A stretch of 34,770 bases of DNA from Actinomycetota bacterium (GTDB taxonomy: Bacteria > Actinomycetota > Actinomycetes > S36-B12): the NCBI GenBank assembly GCA_029978585.1, contig JAPOJD010000006.1, positions 1 through 34,770 of the forward strand, given 5' to 3'. Numbering within the stretch: the first letter of the stretch is position 1; the number at the start of each line of letters is the position of its first letter. Made by a program: the position numbers and the translations under genes. The notes below the pieces were generated by a model. The model was not told the DNA's origin and ran no database searches. It worked only from the letters and a program-made list of their open reading frames with translations. Positions 1,353-7,942 of this stretch are shown piece after piece.

Positions 1353-3308
1353 TCAGGCGGTACGCCGCCGTCCGCGGCGGGACCGCACGTAGTCGGTGAC
1401 GACGTAATCGCCCAGTTGGTCGCCGTCCGCGGCGAACACTCGGCCGCCGTTGCGCCGCGCCATCGCGTCGAGGAAGCGCTCCAGGCGGGGATCGTCGCCG
1501 AGGCGGAACCACGAGATCGGCACGCCGCGCCGCGTCAGCCGGTCGACCTCGGCCACGGTGAGGGCGATCGTCTCCCGATCGGGCGGCCAGGTGAACCACC
1601 ATTGCCCGTCCGGCAGCAGGTGAGCGGTCGGCTCGCCGTCCGTGACGACGAGGCACACGGGCTCGGCATCGCGGTGCCGGTCGAGGAAGCGGCCGGCGAG
1701 CAGCAGCGCATGGTGCAGGTTCGTGCCCTGGATGTCACCGGCGTCCAGGTCGGGAAGTTCCTCGGCGGGGACCACGCGGGCGAGATTGGAGAACGTGATC
1801 ACCTGCAGTGCATCGAGGGGGTACGCCGTCGCGGCGAGGGCGTGCAGGGCGAGCGCCGTGGTCTTCGCGGCACGCCAGGTGTCGTTCATGACCATGGAGA
1901 AGGACTGGTCGACCAGGAGCGCGACTGCAGCGCGCGTGCGGGTCTCGGTCTCGCGGACCTCGAAGTCGTCGGGGGACAGCCGGATCCGGCCGGGCGTGCC
2001 CTCCGCCAGGTGGCGCCGCGAGGCGTTGCCGAGGGTGCGCACGACATCGAGCGGCTGCTCGTCGCCGAACTGCCATGGTCGGGTCTGGCCCGTGAGCTCG
2101 CCGGCAGCGCCGGTGTCGTGAACGTCGTGGTCGCCGCGCGGCCCGGCCTCCATGCCGGCAAACACCCGGCGCAGCGCCGTGCGCCCGATGCGCCGGATGG
2201 CCCGCGGGGTGAGCTCCATCCGGTCGGTGAGGTACCCCTGCTCCCGCAGTTGCCGCTCGATCTCGCGCAGCCGCTCGATGTCGTCGACGGCCTGCCGCCC
2301 CAGGGCTCGACGCACGGCCTCCTCGTCGATGTCCTCCAGCGTGGCCCCGGGGTAGGACTGGGCGAGTTGAGACTCCAGTGAGTCGATGTCGGCGAGCTCG
2401 GCCAGCGCCTCGGTCGCATCGGGCAGCCCGAGGCCCTGCTCGCCCCGCATGCGCTGCCGCCCCTGCCACGCGAGGTCGGGTCGCAGCGCCCGCAGGTTGT
2501 CCTGGAGCGCGGCCATCTCCGCCGCGAGGTCGAGATCCTGCCAGGCCTGCGCCATCAGCCCGGCCAGCTCCTCCCGCTGCTCCGGCGTGAGCGAGTCGAG
2601 CATGCGCTGCATGGCGGCCGCGCGACGGGCCAGCTCGTCGAGCAACTGCTCGAAGGACTCCGGCCGGTCGGGGAAGAAGTCACCGTGCCGGTCCATGAAC
2701 TGCTCGAAGTCCGCGCTGACATCCTCGCCGCGACGGTGCTTGTCCATCATGGCGTTGAGGTCGGCCATCATGTCCTTGAGCGCTCGCTGCGCCTCAGGCG
2801 ACATCGGGTTCTGCATGGCCTGGGAGAGGTCCTTGAATTGCTGGTCGAGTACGTCGCGGCGCAGCATGTCGCGGATCTCGTCGTACGCCGCACGCGCCTC
2901 CGGGGAGCGCCAGTCGTATTCGGCGAGCTCCCGCACGGCACGAGCGGTGTCGTCCGGCAGCATGTCGAGCATCGACTCCCGGAACCGCGCGTCGTCGGAG
3001 GGGTCGGGGAAGAGCGCGGAGCGCTCGAGGTCGAGGGCCTCGTCGAGCTTGTCGCGCACCTGCTCCAGCAGCCCGTCGAGGCGACCCGACTTCTCCAGTT
3101 CGCGCCGCCGCTGCTGCAGCCGGCGCCGCAGGTCGTCGAGACCGCGCATCCCGTCAGTCCCGCGGCGCATGAGGTCGCGCAGCGCATCGCGCACCGAACT
3201 GCCGTCGAGGATGCGGTCCGCGAGAGCGTCGACGGCCGCGCCCGCGTCGACCGGCTCGGCCAGCGGGTCGGGGCCGCCGTGGTAGGCGCCGTATCGGTAG
3301 CGCGCCAT
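1353..3308 (-). CDS. VWA-domain protein, partner of MoxR-type ATPase
   Basis: Large cytoplasmic protein (651 aa) with a C-terminal von Willebrand factor A domain. The first 450 or so residues are charged and helical, without membrane segments or a signal peptide. The VWA domain shows an intact metal-ion-dependent adhesion site: DQSFS near residue 467, the threonine of GTNLHH near 529, and the aspartate of VTDGEP near 557. Proteins of this kind (CoxE/NorD/BchD-like) work with a MoxR-family AAA+ ATPase to insert metals or remodel a client. Such an ATPase lies upstream on the same strand (6530-7942), with the secreted glycine-rich/FN3 gene between them. The ATG at 3308 follows the FN3 stop by 15 bases, so co-transcription is likely. 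The client protein is unknown. Confidence 0.85.
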   Translation of the reverse strand: MARYRYGAYHGGPDPLAEPVDAGAAVDALADRILDGSSVRDALRDLMRRGTDGMRGLDDLRRRLQQRRRELEKSGRLDGLLEQVRDKLDEALDLERSALFPDPSDDARFRESMLDMLPDDTARAVRELAEYDWRSPEARAAYDEIRDMLRRDVLDQQFKDLSQAMQNPMSPEAQRALKDMMADLNAMMDKHRRGEDVSADFEQFMDRHGDFFPDRPESFEQLLDELARRAAAMQRMLDSLTPEQREELAGLMAQAWQDLDLAAEMAALQDNLRALRPDLAWQGRQRMRGEQGLGLPDATEALAELADIDSLESQLAQSYPGATLEDIDEEAVRRALGRQAVDDIERLREIERQLREQGYLTDRMELTPRAIRRIGRTALRRVFAGMEAGPRGDHDVHDTGAAGELTGQTRPWQFGDEQPLDVVRTLGNASRRHLAEGTPGRIRLSPDDFEVRETETRTRAAVALLVDQSFSMVMNDTWRAAKTTALALHALAATAYPLDALQVITFSNLARVVPAEELPDLDAGDIQGTNLHHALLLAGRFLDRHRDAEPVCLVVTDGEPTAHLLPDGQWWFTWPPDRETIALTVAEVDRLTRRGVPISWFRLGDDPRLERFLDAMARRNGGRVFAADGDQLGDYVVTDYVRSRRGRRRTA

Positions 3309-3323: not shown

Positions 3324-5687
3324 TCATCGCGGGTACACCGCGGCCGTCGGGTTCGACCATGGGCCCCAGCCGGCATCGGTGAGGGCCTGGATGCGGAAGC
3401 GATACGACGCCCACGGGTCCAGGCGGCGGAACGTCACCTCGAGCCGGCCGGACCGGTCCACGCGCTGCACCGACCACGCGCCGCCGTCGCGGGACACCGC
3501 GATGCGGTAGGCGACGACCGCGCTCCCGCCGTCGCGCAGGGGCGGCAGCCAGGTGAGGTGGACCTTGCCGGTCGGTACGCCGCTGGCCTGCACCTGCCGC
3601 GGCACGGTCGGGAGCGTGAGCGGGACGACGGGGCCCGCCTGCGCCGACCACGCGCCGCGACCGGCCGCCGTGACGGCGGCGACCTCGACGACGTAGGCGC
3701 GGCCGTTGCGCAGGCTGCCGATGGTGAACGTGGTGGCCGGACCGCCGGTGTAGGCATGCGTCCACGTCATCCCGGCGTCCGCCGACCAGCGGATGCGGTA
3801 CTGCCGAATCGGCAGCCCCCCGGTGGCCACGGGCGCACTCCAGCGCACGGCGAGGGAGGCGTCCCCTCCGCGGACGAACACCTGCGTCGGCGCACCCGGG
3901 GCGCTCGCCGGAATCACCGGAGGGGATGGCACCGACTCCGGGCCGGCACCCGCGGCATTGATGGCCGCGACCCGGAAGAGGTACGGCGTGCCGTTCGACA
4001 GCCCGGTCGCGACGTACTCCGTGGCCGTCGATCCGGTGTCGGCGACGAGTTCGTACCACCCGGTATTCGAGGACGCCTCGATGCGGTAGCCGACGACGTT
4101 GCGGCCGTTGTCGCTGGTGGGCGGCTCCCAGGTCACCGTGGCCGTCGCGTTGCCCGCGACCGCGCTCACGCCGCTCGGCGTACCGGGGACCGTGAACGGT
4201 CGAGCGATCGCGGGCTGGCTGACGAGGCCGACCCCGAACGTGTTGGTGATCGCAGCGACGCGGAACTCGTAGGCCGTGCCGTTCGCCAACTGCGTCACGG
4301 TGTAGCGAGTCGCGCCGGTTCCCGTGGACGCGGTGTGGACGCGCCACTGCGAGGAGCCGGCCTCACGCAGGTCGATGCGGTAGCCCGTGAGCGTGCCCCC
4401 GCCCAGGTCGTTGGGCGGGTCCCACGTGAGCGTGACCGAGCGATCGGCCGGGGACCCCCGCAGCCGGGTCGGCGGCGACGACCGTGCCTCGGGGGAGATC
4501 GGGCCGGTGGGCGCGGACCAGGCGCTTGTCCCGGTCGCGCTCACGGCCGCGACCTCGAAGACGAGGTACGTCGCCTGCGTCAGGCCTGCGTAGAGGTAGG
4601 TCGTGGCCGTCGATCCCGTGGCGACGGGCGTGCTCCACGTCGCGCCGGAGTCGTCGGTGTAGCGCACGAGGTAGCCGGTCACCGGCACGGGCGATGCCGG
4701 AGGAGCCCGCCAGGTCAGGTCGACTGCCTGGTACGCCGACACGGCAACCAGGTCGGTGGGTGCGCCGGGGTCGAGCTCGGGGTAGATCAGCGATGACGCC
4801 GCCGACCACGCGCTCGTGCCCACGCTGTTGATCGCCGCCACCTCAAAGATGTAGCCCGCCTGGCTGGTCAGGTTGCCTACCGTCGCCGACGTGGCCGTCG
4901 ACCCCGTGTTCGGCATCTGTGCCCACGACCCGCCACCATCGGTGGAGTAGCGGATGAAGTACCCCGTCACCGGGGCGCCCCCCGTCTGTGTCGGCGCGGT
5001 CCACGACAGGGCCACCGACTCGTAGCCGGGCGTCCCCGCGACATTCGTTGGCGCGTTCGACACCGACGTCACCGTCACCGGCTGGGTCACTGCCGACGGC
5101 GGCCCGGTGGTCGTTTGGTTGACTGCTGAAACCTGGAACACGTACGTGCCCGTGGGCAGGGATCCCGTGTAGGACGTCTGCGACGCGGGCACCGCTGCCC
5201 AGAGGCTCCACGTCTGGCCGCCATTCGTCGACCAGCCGATCACGTAGTTCACCAGCGGCGTTCCGCCGGTGAAGGTGGGTGCCGTCCAGGTCACTGTCGC
5301 CGTGCCCGTCCCGGCCGTGGCGCTGACAGCCGTCGGCGCCCCCGGCACGCTGGAGGCCTTGACGTCGCCGCTGTAGGTGACGGTGCTCGTGGCCAGCGCA
5401 CCGGGTCCTGCCGTCGCCGACAGGGTGAAACTGAACACTTCGGCGCGCGTCGGGGTGCCCGACAGCAGGCCGGTCGGGCTCACGGACAGTCCGTCCGGGA
5501 CGACACCGCCGGTCACCTGCCAGGTGATCGTGCTGGCCGGGTTGGCGAAGGTGGCCACCAGTTGCTGTGAGACGGGCACGCCCGCGGTCATCGTCGACAG
5601 CGATGTCGTGGTGATGTCGACCCACTGGATCGTTGCGGAGGGTGAGGAGGCCGGGCTGGCCAGTGTTGTCGTGGCGTTGGTCACCAT
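3324..5687 (-). CDS. 3' part of a secreted Ig/fibronectin-III repeat protein, separated from its 5' part by an amber codon
   Basis: The frame from 5687 encodes 787 residues with no signal peptide: a putative-Ig (He_PIG-like) domain at about residues 30-110 (SPTGLLSGTPTRAE is typical), then seven fibronectin type III repeats of about 95 residues, each opening with PGAPT-like linkers and a conserved W in V-x-W-x-A/P-P. It is in the same frame as the glycine-rich ORF upstream. Only one TAG (5706-5708) separates them, and the bridging residues SYANPAMVTN continue the usual Gly-rich-to-Ig linker. ATG 5687 has no good ribosome binding site. I read the two parts as one former gene of about 1,070 codons, with start 6533. 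If the stop is real, this half is either untranslated or made without a secretion signal. Role inferred: cell-surface or extracellular binding. Confidence 0.75.
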   Translation of the reverse strand: MVTNATTTLASPASSPSATIQWVDITTTSLSTMTAGVPVSQQLVATFANPASTITWQVTGGVVPDGLSVSPTGLLSGTPTRAEVFSFTLSATAGPGALATSTVTYSGDVKASSVPGAPTAVSATAGTGTATVTWTAPTFTGGTPLVNYVIGWSTNGGQTWSLWAAVPASQTSYTGSLPTGTYVFQVSAVNQTTTGPPSAVTQPVTVTSVSNAPTNVAGTPGYESVALSWTAPTQTGGAPVTGYFIRYSTDGGGSWAQMPNTGSTATSATVGNLTSQAGYIFEVAAINSVGTSAWSAASSLIYPELDPGAPTDLVAVSAYQAVDLTWRAPPASPVPVTGYLVRYTDDSGATWSTPVATGSTATTYLYAGLTQATYLVFEVAAVSATGTSAWSAPTGPISPEARSSPPTRLRGSPADRSVTLTWDPPNDLGGGTLTGYRIDLREAGSSQWRVHTASTGTGATRYTVTQLANGTAYEFRVAAITNTFGVGLVSQPAIARPFTVPGTPSGVSAVAGNATATVTWEPPTSDNGRNVVGYRIEASSNTGWYELVADTGSTATEYVATGLSNGTPYLFRVAAINAAGAGPESVPSPPVIPASAPGAPTQVFVRGGDASLAVRWSAPVATGGLPIRQYRIRWSADAGMTWTHAYTGGPATTFTIGSLRNGRAYVVEVAAVTAAGRGAWSAQAGPVVPLTLPTVPRQVQASGVPTGKVHLTWLPPLRDGGSAVVAYRIAVSRDGGAWSVQRVDRSGRLEVTFRRLDPWASYRFRIQALTDAGWGPWSNPTAAVYPR

Positions 5688-5705
5688 GGCGGGATTCGCG
5701 TACGA

Positions 5706-5708
5706 CTA
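5706..5708 (-). other. in-frame amber (TAG) codon splitting one gene
   Basis: The reading frame GGC GGC GGG TAG TCG TAC GCG runs directly from the glycine-rich ORF into the FN3 ORF. A Gly-run followed by S-S-Y is the normal junction in this protein type, so TAG most simply derives from TCG (Ser) by one base change. It is codon 276 counted from 6533. Confidence 0.85.
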
Positions 5709-6533
5709 CCCGCCGCCGCCTCCGCCGCCCGCTCCCGCGTAGCCGACGATTCCTGCCTGTCCGGCCTGGCCCCCCCCGCCGCCGAGCCAGCCGCCGCCGC
5801 CTCCGCCGCCACCGGCGTTGCCCGTTCCGGTCTCGGAGTTGCCCCCCAGCTGGCCATTGCCGCTGGGATCCACGCCGCCGGGTCCGCCGTCACCGCCGTT
5901 GTCCCCGCCGGCACTCGCGCCGTCCTGCGCGGGGAAGACCCCGCCGCTCGCGGTCCCGGAGCCGCCGCTGCCACCCGCGCCCCCGGCCACATAGCCCTGG
6001 CCAGAGCCGCCCTGGTGCGCCCCGCCTCCACCGCCGCCACCGCCCGCGACCATGACCCGCGTGTCGGGGAGGTAGCCGCCGATGCGCAGGTCCGTGTCGC
6101 CGCCGCCCCCGCCGCCGCTCAAGCTGGCACCCGGCGACCAGCTGCCGGTCCCACCGCCCGCACCGCCGTTCCACCCACCCGTGCCGGGCGTGCCGCCATC
6201 GGCGTCGCCGCCGGCACCGCCGACCCATGCTGCGATGAGCGTCGTACCGGCGGTCCACGTGAGGGTGCCCTGCACCTGCGCTCCGGCACCGCCGGAGTCG
6301 TCCTGGATGCTGTCGGACCCACCGGCAGCGCCGATGAGGGTCACGTATGCAGACTGCACGCCCCTGGGGACCGACCAGCTCTGCGGGCTGCCGGTGGAGG
6401 AGAAGGTCACCTGGTTGGTGGCGCTCGCCCGCGACGAGGGCTCGGCTGTCGCCGTGGTAGGCACCACGACCGCGACTGCGGCCGCGAGGGCGAGGGCGGA
6501 TACGCCGATGACAGGGGTGCGCATGGGCCTCAT
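5706..6533 (-). CDS. secreted glycine-rich protein (5' part of the interrupted FN3 gene)
   Basis: 275 residues before the amber stop. The N-terminus has a signal peptide: Arg-containing start, hydrophobic stretch VIGVSALALAAAVAVVV, and a likely cleavage after TATAEP. Next comes a beta-rich segment (QSWSVPRGVQSAYVTLIGAAG) typical of the bacterial glycine-rich protein domain, then about 180 residues dominated by Gly with repeated GGAGG, GGTG and GGGGGGG tracts. The ATG at 6533 overlaps the TGA of the moxR-type gene as ATGA, which predicts translational coupling; a second ATG at 6524 gives a more compact signal peptide. The protein probably ends prematurely: in comparable proteins the Gly-rich domain is followed by Ig and FN3 domains, which here lie directly downstream in the same frame. 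Confidence 0.75.
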   Translation of the reverse strand: MRPMRTPVIGVSALALAAAVAVVVPTTATAEPSSRASATNQVTFSSTGSPQSWSVPRGVQSAYVTLIGAAGGSDSIQDDSGGAGAQVQGTLTWTAGTTLIAAWVGGAGGDADGGTPGTGGWNGGAGGGTGSWSPGASLSGGGGGGDTDLRIGGYLPDTRVMVAGGGGGGGGAHQGGSGQGYVAGGAGGSGGSGTASGGVFPAQDGASAGGDNGGDGGPGGVDPSGNGQLGGNSETGTGNAGGGGGGGGWLGGGGGQAGQAGIVGYAGAGGGGGGG

Positions 6534-7942
6534 TCTCCCGAGGCGGCGTAGGTGATGCGACCGCCCGCCTCGTCCTTGTCGATGCGCCGGGTGAGCCACA
6601 GCCCCTCGAGGGCCATCTCGACGCAGGCCGCGCTGATGCCCGCGGTGGGTTCTGCCTCCGGGCCCTCGAGGGCGCTGACGAGCCGGCCTAGACCCTCGAA
6701 CTGCCCGCCGGAGGCGAGGAGGTCAGGGCCGCGCACGAGGTCGCCGGTCTCGATGGTGGCCCCCTCGTCGAGGACGGCCACGAGCGGCCCGAGGTCCATG
6801 CCCCCGAGGTGGCGGCGGTAGGTCTCGGCGACCGCCTTGCGCGCGAGGTGATGCAGCACCTCCTCCTCCCGGCCCTCCTCGCTCACCTCGAACTCAACCT
6901 TCCCGCGGAGCGTCGGCACGACTCCGTCGAGATCCCCGACGCGCGCTACGGGGAAGTCGCCGGTGATCGCCGCGCGGCGCAGGGCGGCGCCCGCGAGTGC
7001 CTCGGCACCGGCGATGGCGAAGCGCGCGGATACGCCGCTGCGCTGATCGACCGCCGCGGACTCGCGCACGAGCCGGGTGAAGCGAGCCATCACCTCGAGC
7101 AGGTGACGCGGCACGATGGCGACGAGGTCGGCCTCCTGGGCGATCAGGTCGACCTCGTGGGCGACGTCGTAGGGGTAGTGGGTCGTGATCTCGGCGCCGA
7201 ATCGGTCCTTCATCGGCGTGATGATGCGGCCGCGGTTGGTGTAGTCCTCGGGGTTGGCGCTGGCCATGACGAGCAGGTCCAGCGGCAGGCGCAGGGTGTA
7301 GCCGCGCACCTGGATATCGCGCTCCTCGAGCACGTTGAGCAGGGCAACCTGGATGCGCTCGGCGAGGTCGGGCAGTTCGTTGATCGCGAAGATGCCGCGG
7401 TTCGTTCGAGGGACGAGGCCGAAGTGGATGGTCTCCGGGTCGCCGAGAGTTCGGCCCTCGGCCACCTTGACCGGATCGACGTCGCCGATCAGGTCGCCGA
7501 CCGACGTGTCGGGGGTGGCGAGCTTCTCGCCGTAGCGCTCGCTGCGATGCCGCCACGTCACCGGGGTGTCGTCGCCGAGCTCTGCCACGAGGCGCACCCC
7601 GTACGCGCTGACCGGGGCCATGGGGTCGTCGTTCACCTCCGACCCCTCGACGATGGGCATCCACTCGTCAAGCAGGGTGACCAGCGTCCGGATGAGGCGG
7701 GTCTTGCCCTGGCCGCGCTCGCCCAGGAGTACGACGTCGTGCCCCGCGAGGAGCGCTCGTTCGAGCTGCGGCAGCACGGTGTCGTCGAAACCGACGATCC
7801 CGGGGAATGTGGGCTCCCCGGCCGACAGTCGCGCGCGCAGGTTGTCGCGGATCTCCTCCTTGATGCTGCGGGGCTCATAGCCGGAGGAGCGCAGTGCGCC
7901 GAGTGTCCGCGGTAGGTGGGCCGGGATGACGGGGGTGCTCAT
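6530..7942 (-). CDS. MoxR / magnesium-chelatase-like AAA+ ATPase
   Basis: AAA+ ATPase of 470 residues. Walker A is GERGQGKT (residues 74-81) and the Walker B/ELPDL segment is IFAINELPDL (184-193), followed by the sensor-1 region MASANPEDYTNRGR (about 226-239) typical of magnesium-chelatase-I and MoxR relatives. Family role: ATP-driven remodelling or metal-insertion chaperone that pairs with a VWA protein. The VWA partner is encoded downstream (1353-3308), but unusually a secreted glycine-rich/FN3 gene sits between the two. The start is ATG 7942 (MSTPVIPAHL), preceded by TACCGT exactly six bases upstream; longer upstream extensions would run into the divergent FIST gene and are rejected. The stop overlaps the start of the next gene (ATGA). 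Confidence 0.88.
   Translation of the reverse strand: MSTPVIPAHLPRTLGALRSSGYEPRSIKEEIRDNLRARLSAGEPTFPGIVGFDDTVLPQLERALLAGHDVVLLGERGQGKTRLIRTLVTLLDEWMPIVEGSEVNDDPMAPVSAYGVRLVAELGDDTPVTWRHRSERYGEKLATPDTSVGDLIGDVDPVKVAEGRTLGDPETIHFGLVPRTNRGIFAINELPDLAERIQVALLNVLEERDIQVRGYTLRLPLDLLVMASANPEDYTNRGRIITPMKDRFGAEITTHYPYDVAHEVDLIAQEADLVAIVPRHLLEVMARFTRLVRESAAVDQRSGVSARFAIAGAEALAGAALRRAAITGDFPVARVGDLDGVVPTLRGKVEFEVSEEGREEEVLHHLARKAVAETYRRHLGGMDLGPLVAVLDEGATIETGDLVRGPDLLASGGQFEGLGRLVSALEGPEAEPTAGISAACVEMALEGLWLTRRIDKDEAGGRITYAASGE

Follow-up and report, generated by a model that had tools for sequence, protein, structure and literature searches.

Two open reading frames on the minus strand of contig JAPOJD010000006.1 lie in one frame and are parted by a TAG codon. 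The locus raises the question of whether they represent two genes, one gene broken by a mutation, a gene that is read through its stop, or an artefact of the assembly. The window analysed here is the whole stretch of 34,770 nt, and the relevant features (all on the minus strand) are as follows.

1353..3308, minus strand: VWA-domain gene, the downstream neighbour (PF13519 match below cut-off)
3324..3326, minus strand: TGA, the natural gene end, with 15 bases between it and the VWA gene (from the sequence)
3342..5345, minus strand: seven fibronectin type III (FN3) domains (PF00041, 7 stretches, E 9.5e-89)
5352..5624, minus strand: Ig-like domain of cadherin-like/He_PIG type, residues ~301–391 (AlphaFold2, structural matches, He_PIG in homologues)
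5622..6425, minus strand: glycine-rich domain of ALK/LTK (TG/GRD) type, residues ~34–301, with the amber codon inside it (AlphaFold2 model, structural match, PF12810)
5706..5708, minus strand: in-frame TAG (amber), residue 273 (from the sequence; aligned with a motif Ser/Ala in homologues)
5710..5810, minus strand: GGC/GGA poly-Gly tract adjoining the stop, with a 20-base exact direct repeat (5710–5729 and 5791–5810; spacing 81, a multiple of 3)
6444..6533, minus strand: start region and signal peptide (from the sequence; signal peptide by eye)
6530..7942, minus strand: MoxR/ChlI-like AAA+ ATPase gene, the upstream neighbour (Pfam and NCBIfam AAA/chelatase matches, the latter below their cut-offs)

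The reading frame and its interruption

The frame begins at ATG 6533 or 6524, the former overlapping the stop codon of the upstream ATPase gene as ATGA, and extends to the TGA at nt 3324–3326, with the TAG at nt 5706–5708 as its sole interruption (minus strand: GGC GGG TAG TCG TAC). Depending on the start, 275 or 272 codons precede the TAG; six sense codons follow, and then ATG 5687, from which 787 codons lead to the TGA. An earlier note on this DNA had described two ORFs sharing a frame with only TAG and six sense codons between them, and this is borne out by the sequence. A frameshift in the poly-Gly tract was considered and is excluded, as the frame is identical on both sides of the TAG.

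The second part is genuine coding sequence, and its openness is no accident of high GC content, since the 793 codons downstream of the TAG contain no further stops and no frameshifts, their GC3 (0.91, and 0.86 before the TAG) is like that of the two neighbouring genes (0.91–0.92), and third-position bias is present in every 100-codon block. The TAG is the single disabling lesion in 1065 sense codons, the coding frame being otherwise intact. A scan confined to sigma-70-like promoters and to terminators between the ATPase, split and VWA genes gave no match.

Homologues and domain architecture

At least ten divergent homologues, from the same family and order, run through the junction as one ORF (L110, L123, L085, L086, L096, L109, L113, L120, L111, L121, L124, L125 and others) and continue past it with an Ig or FN3 domain. 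Many of them have a GGGG-[S/A]-S-[Y/F/W] motif that aligns with the poly-Gly, TAG, Ser and Tyr of the split gene, the amber codon occupying the Ser/Ala position. No stop was seen at this position in the homologues examined, and none of those found ends there. Because homologues cross the junction in a single ORF, with Ser/Ala where the amber codon stands, the comparative sequence data indicate that the split locus was one gene. This agrees with the earlier proposal that one in-frame nonsense codon divides a single secreted gene. The condition named there as refuting it, namely orthologues encoded as two separate genes, each with a start of its own, was checked in the nearest homologues available, all of which are single ORFs across the junction.

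Four homologues (L086 of genome G033, L110 and L123 of G080, and L120 of G094) resemble the split gene in having an apparent signal peptide, an ALK/LTK-type or related glycine-rich domain and a GGGG-[S/A]-S-[Y/F] motif followed by Ig (He_PIG) or FN3 domains. They differ in being single ORFs, whereas the split gene has an amber codon in place of the motif Ser/Ala, and overall identity to its protein is only ~32–38%. In genome G030 a homologous glycine-rich/Ig gene (L094 / L106; contig C3, ~1304021–1304386) is spread over several frames; it is broken by frame changes elsewhere, not at the position of the amber codon, and from its sequence may be either a multiply frameshifted pseudogene or the product of assembly indel errors. 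A literature search for a glycine-rich plus Ig/FN3 architecture split by a stop found no paper.

The N-terminus of the split gene's product resembles a signal peptide, with likely cleavage after ATATA-A, and this is present only in the part upstream of the TAG (all by eye). An AlphaFold2 model of residues 1–400, read through the stop (14 sequences; mean pLDDT 71, pTM 0.76), shows a beta domain whose long glycine loops are poorly predicted and, C-terminal to it, an Ig-like domain that is predicted well (pLDDT mostly above 90). The top structural matches of the beta domain (residues ~34–301) are ALK and LTK, with Z 14.2–15.4 over residues 37–301, 186–225 residues aligned and 22–27% identity, and the next rows have Z 9.2 and below. 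A PF12810 match at residues 61–290 (E 4.5e-4) reaches 20.7 bits, under the curated cut-off of 24.5, while the homologue L086 passes that cut-off at 28.0. The predicted fold thus matches crystal structures of the ALK/LTK glycine-rich (TG) domain (Z ~15), but unlike ALK and LTK the domain here is bacterial, is joined to Ig and FN3 domains, and has no kinase. The Ig-like domain matches SraP and other Ig/cadherin-like domains (Z 5–7), and homologues have He_PIG where it stands. No sortase motif or membrane anchor was seen at the C-terminal end of the FN3 part. The gene probably encodes a large, secreted, adhesive surface protein.

In the model, strands 281–288 and 296–300, both beyond the amber codon at residue 273, belong to the glycine-rich domain, and the stop is thus predicted to cut through a folded ALK/LTK-type domain. 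The earlier note had placed the signal peptide in the first part and all adhesion-type domains in the second. The former holds, by eye, but the latter does not, as the ALK/LTK-type glycine-rich domain spans the stop.

Genomic setting: the MoxR-type ATPase and VWA neighbours

The neighbours of the split gene are well conserved, the ATPase gene at 84–93% in congeners and the VWA gene at 79–92% identity in all ten. The two genes are adjacent or overlapping in 10/10 congeners and in nearly all other relatives that have both, with match-to-match gaps of 5–53 bases within the genus and 8–86 bases in most other relatives. Only in the present genome are they separated by 3.2 kb, which is exactly the split gene, and no orthologue of it was found in the ten same-genus genomes. 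Because the pair is adjacent in all ten congeners and parted only here, the split gene appears to be a gain of this lineage, placed where the two members of a conserved MoxR–VWA pair meet. That the whole gene is, by this comparison, lineage-specific and interrupts such a pair is new relative to the earlier note. The flanking genes are of the same AAA+ ATPase and VWA type as the MoxR ATPase–VWA pairs ravA–viaA, norQ–norD and cbbQ–cbbO, but in contrast to those, the pair here is parted by a 3.2-kb surface-protein gene.

Two genomes of another family, G040 and G044, carry a small opposite-strand gene between the same ATPase and VWA genes (L071 3486–3974 and L074 3486–3986, respectively). The protein, of ~165 aa, begins with the motif GWYxNPxNxxQLRxWDGQxWT and is DUF2510-like by eye. 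Since these genomes have their own small gene there, insertion at the ATPase–VWA junction has happened more than once.

In the nearest congener, G010 (L098/L057, contig C73, 1–228), a spacer of 53 bases, containing an ORF of 14 codons, separates the ATPase and VWA genes, and the assembly breaks inside the ATPase gene, ~150 bases upstream. This spacer was considered as a deletion scar of the gene, and the idea was rejected because ~35% of shuffles resemble the insert's ends as closely as it does. A target-site duplication was likewise rejected: just one direct repeat, of 16 bases, lies close to both ends (3275–3290 and 6450–6465), one copy being inside the VWA gene and the other inside the signal-peptide region, and the two are not in register. 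A search for a source of the insert among plasmids, phages and viral contigs gave no match.

Nature and age of the stop codon

We favour, with some reserve, the interpretation of the split locus as a gene that encodes a secreted surface protein of several domains and has suffered a recent nonsense mutation. Translation would start coupled to the MoxR-type ATPase gene and end at the amber codon, residue 273, giving an exported fragment with a glycine-rich domain lacking its last strands, and with the Ig-like and all seven FN3 domains missing. Such a fragment would probably be non-functional. The 2.4 kb 3' of the amber codon would go untranslated, save for possible weak reinitiation, and this could also reduce expression of the VWA gene by polarity.

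The recency of the event is suggested by the absence of other lesions in the frame. About 2.8% of random substitutions in the second part (201/7137) would make a stop, and finding none bounds neutral change since the event at ~4–5% per site (about 3/67), or more tightly once indels are included; at fourfold-degenerate sites the difference from the nearest congener is 0.43–0.51. With this bound, the lesion is either recent or not real; the earlier argument from the preserved frame to a recent event is accordingly upheld in that wider form, there being no lesion in 793 codons. As no congener has the gene, there is no true orthologue by which to date the event. A single stop in an intact frame is also what is seen in pseudogenised bacterial surface proteins in general, and nothing about the present case is distinctive in that respect.

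The TAG may instead have arisen as an error of the consensus or assembly, or be a minority allele in a mixture of strains, with the gene intact in the living cells, but we consider this somewhat doubtful. The source genome is a fragmented, metagenome-type draft assembly (257 contigs, 91% complete), and the amber codon lies at the edge of the GGC/GGA tract, with the exact 20-base repeat 81 bases off. In Illumina data, substitution errors are over-represented after GGG and CGG 3-mers (PMC4787001), which would bear on the TAG if the reads used here came from that platform. The intact 2.4-kb frame 3' of the stop is also what an error would leave. Against this, no other main gene in the window was seen to be broken, indicating a generally clean assembly, and sequence-context errors are generally outvoted in the consensus. 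Recombination between the copies at 5710–5729 and 5791–5810, which are GC-rich, would delete 27 codons in frame.

Amber readthrough or recoding, yielding a small amount of full-length protein, had also been proposed. Neither the frame nor the coding bias is disturbed on either side of the amber codon, as readthrough would have it, but this explanation is unlikely and we give it little credence, because RF1 is present in the genome (464 bits, above cut-off), a CUA anticodon occurs in none of the 26 tRNA genes found (in a genome 91% complete, with an incomplete recovered tRNA set), and 13 other listed ORFs in the window finish with TAG, an ordinary terminator in this genome. The lack of a stop at this position in any homologue also argues against it. 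Basal readthrough is always possible, yet would be unremarkable.

The earlier suggestion of a recent nonsense mutation with phase loss of the protein fared unevenly: the intact frame over 793 codons points to a recent event or an error, while no repeat was found whose copy-number change would create or remove the amber codon, so there is no evidence for phase variation. It is improbable that the amber codon is kept as an on/off allele of an adhesin-like protein, specific to this lineage and encoded in a MoxR–VWA operon, with strains with and without the stop coexisting and the stop also lowering VWA expression by polarity.

It is no more credible that the truncated, secreted glycine-rich protein of 272 residues is itself the selected product. 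The apparent signal peptide would be kept, as would the greater part of the glycine-rich region, but the stop falls inside the predicted domain, ahead of the two strands that complete the fold, and no homologue found terminates there. Least plausible of all is separate translation of the second ORF by reinitiation at ATG 5687 to give an independent FN3 protein: this ATG is only 18 bases past the stop and its frame is open, but, in line with the earlier remark that the second part has no good ribosome binding site, it is without a Shine-Dalgarno-like sequence, the ORF also has no signal peptide although an FN3 protein should be extracellular, and the homologues have both parts fused.

Overall, the case serves mainly as a caution: where a draft assembly shows a surface-protein gene in two pieces, the best reading is a single gene that is broken or mis-sequenced, and neither two genes nor recoding. 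Across this order, bacterial proteins combine glycine-rich domains of ALK/LTK type with Ig/FN3 stalks, and in the present lineage a surface-protein gene, apparently lineage-specific, has come to lie precisely where the two genes of a conserved MoxR–VWA operon meet.
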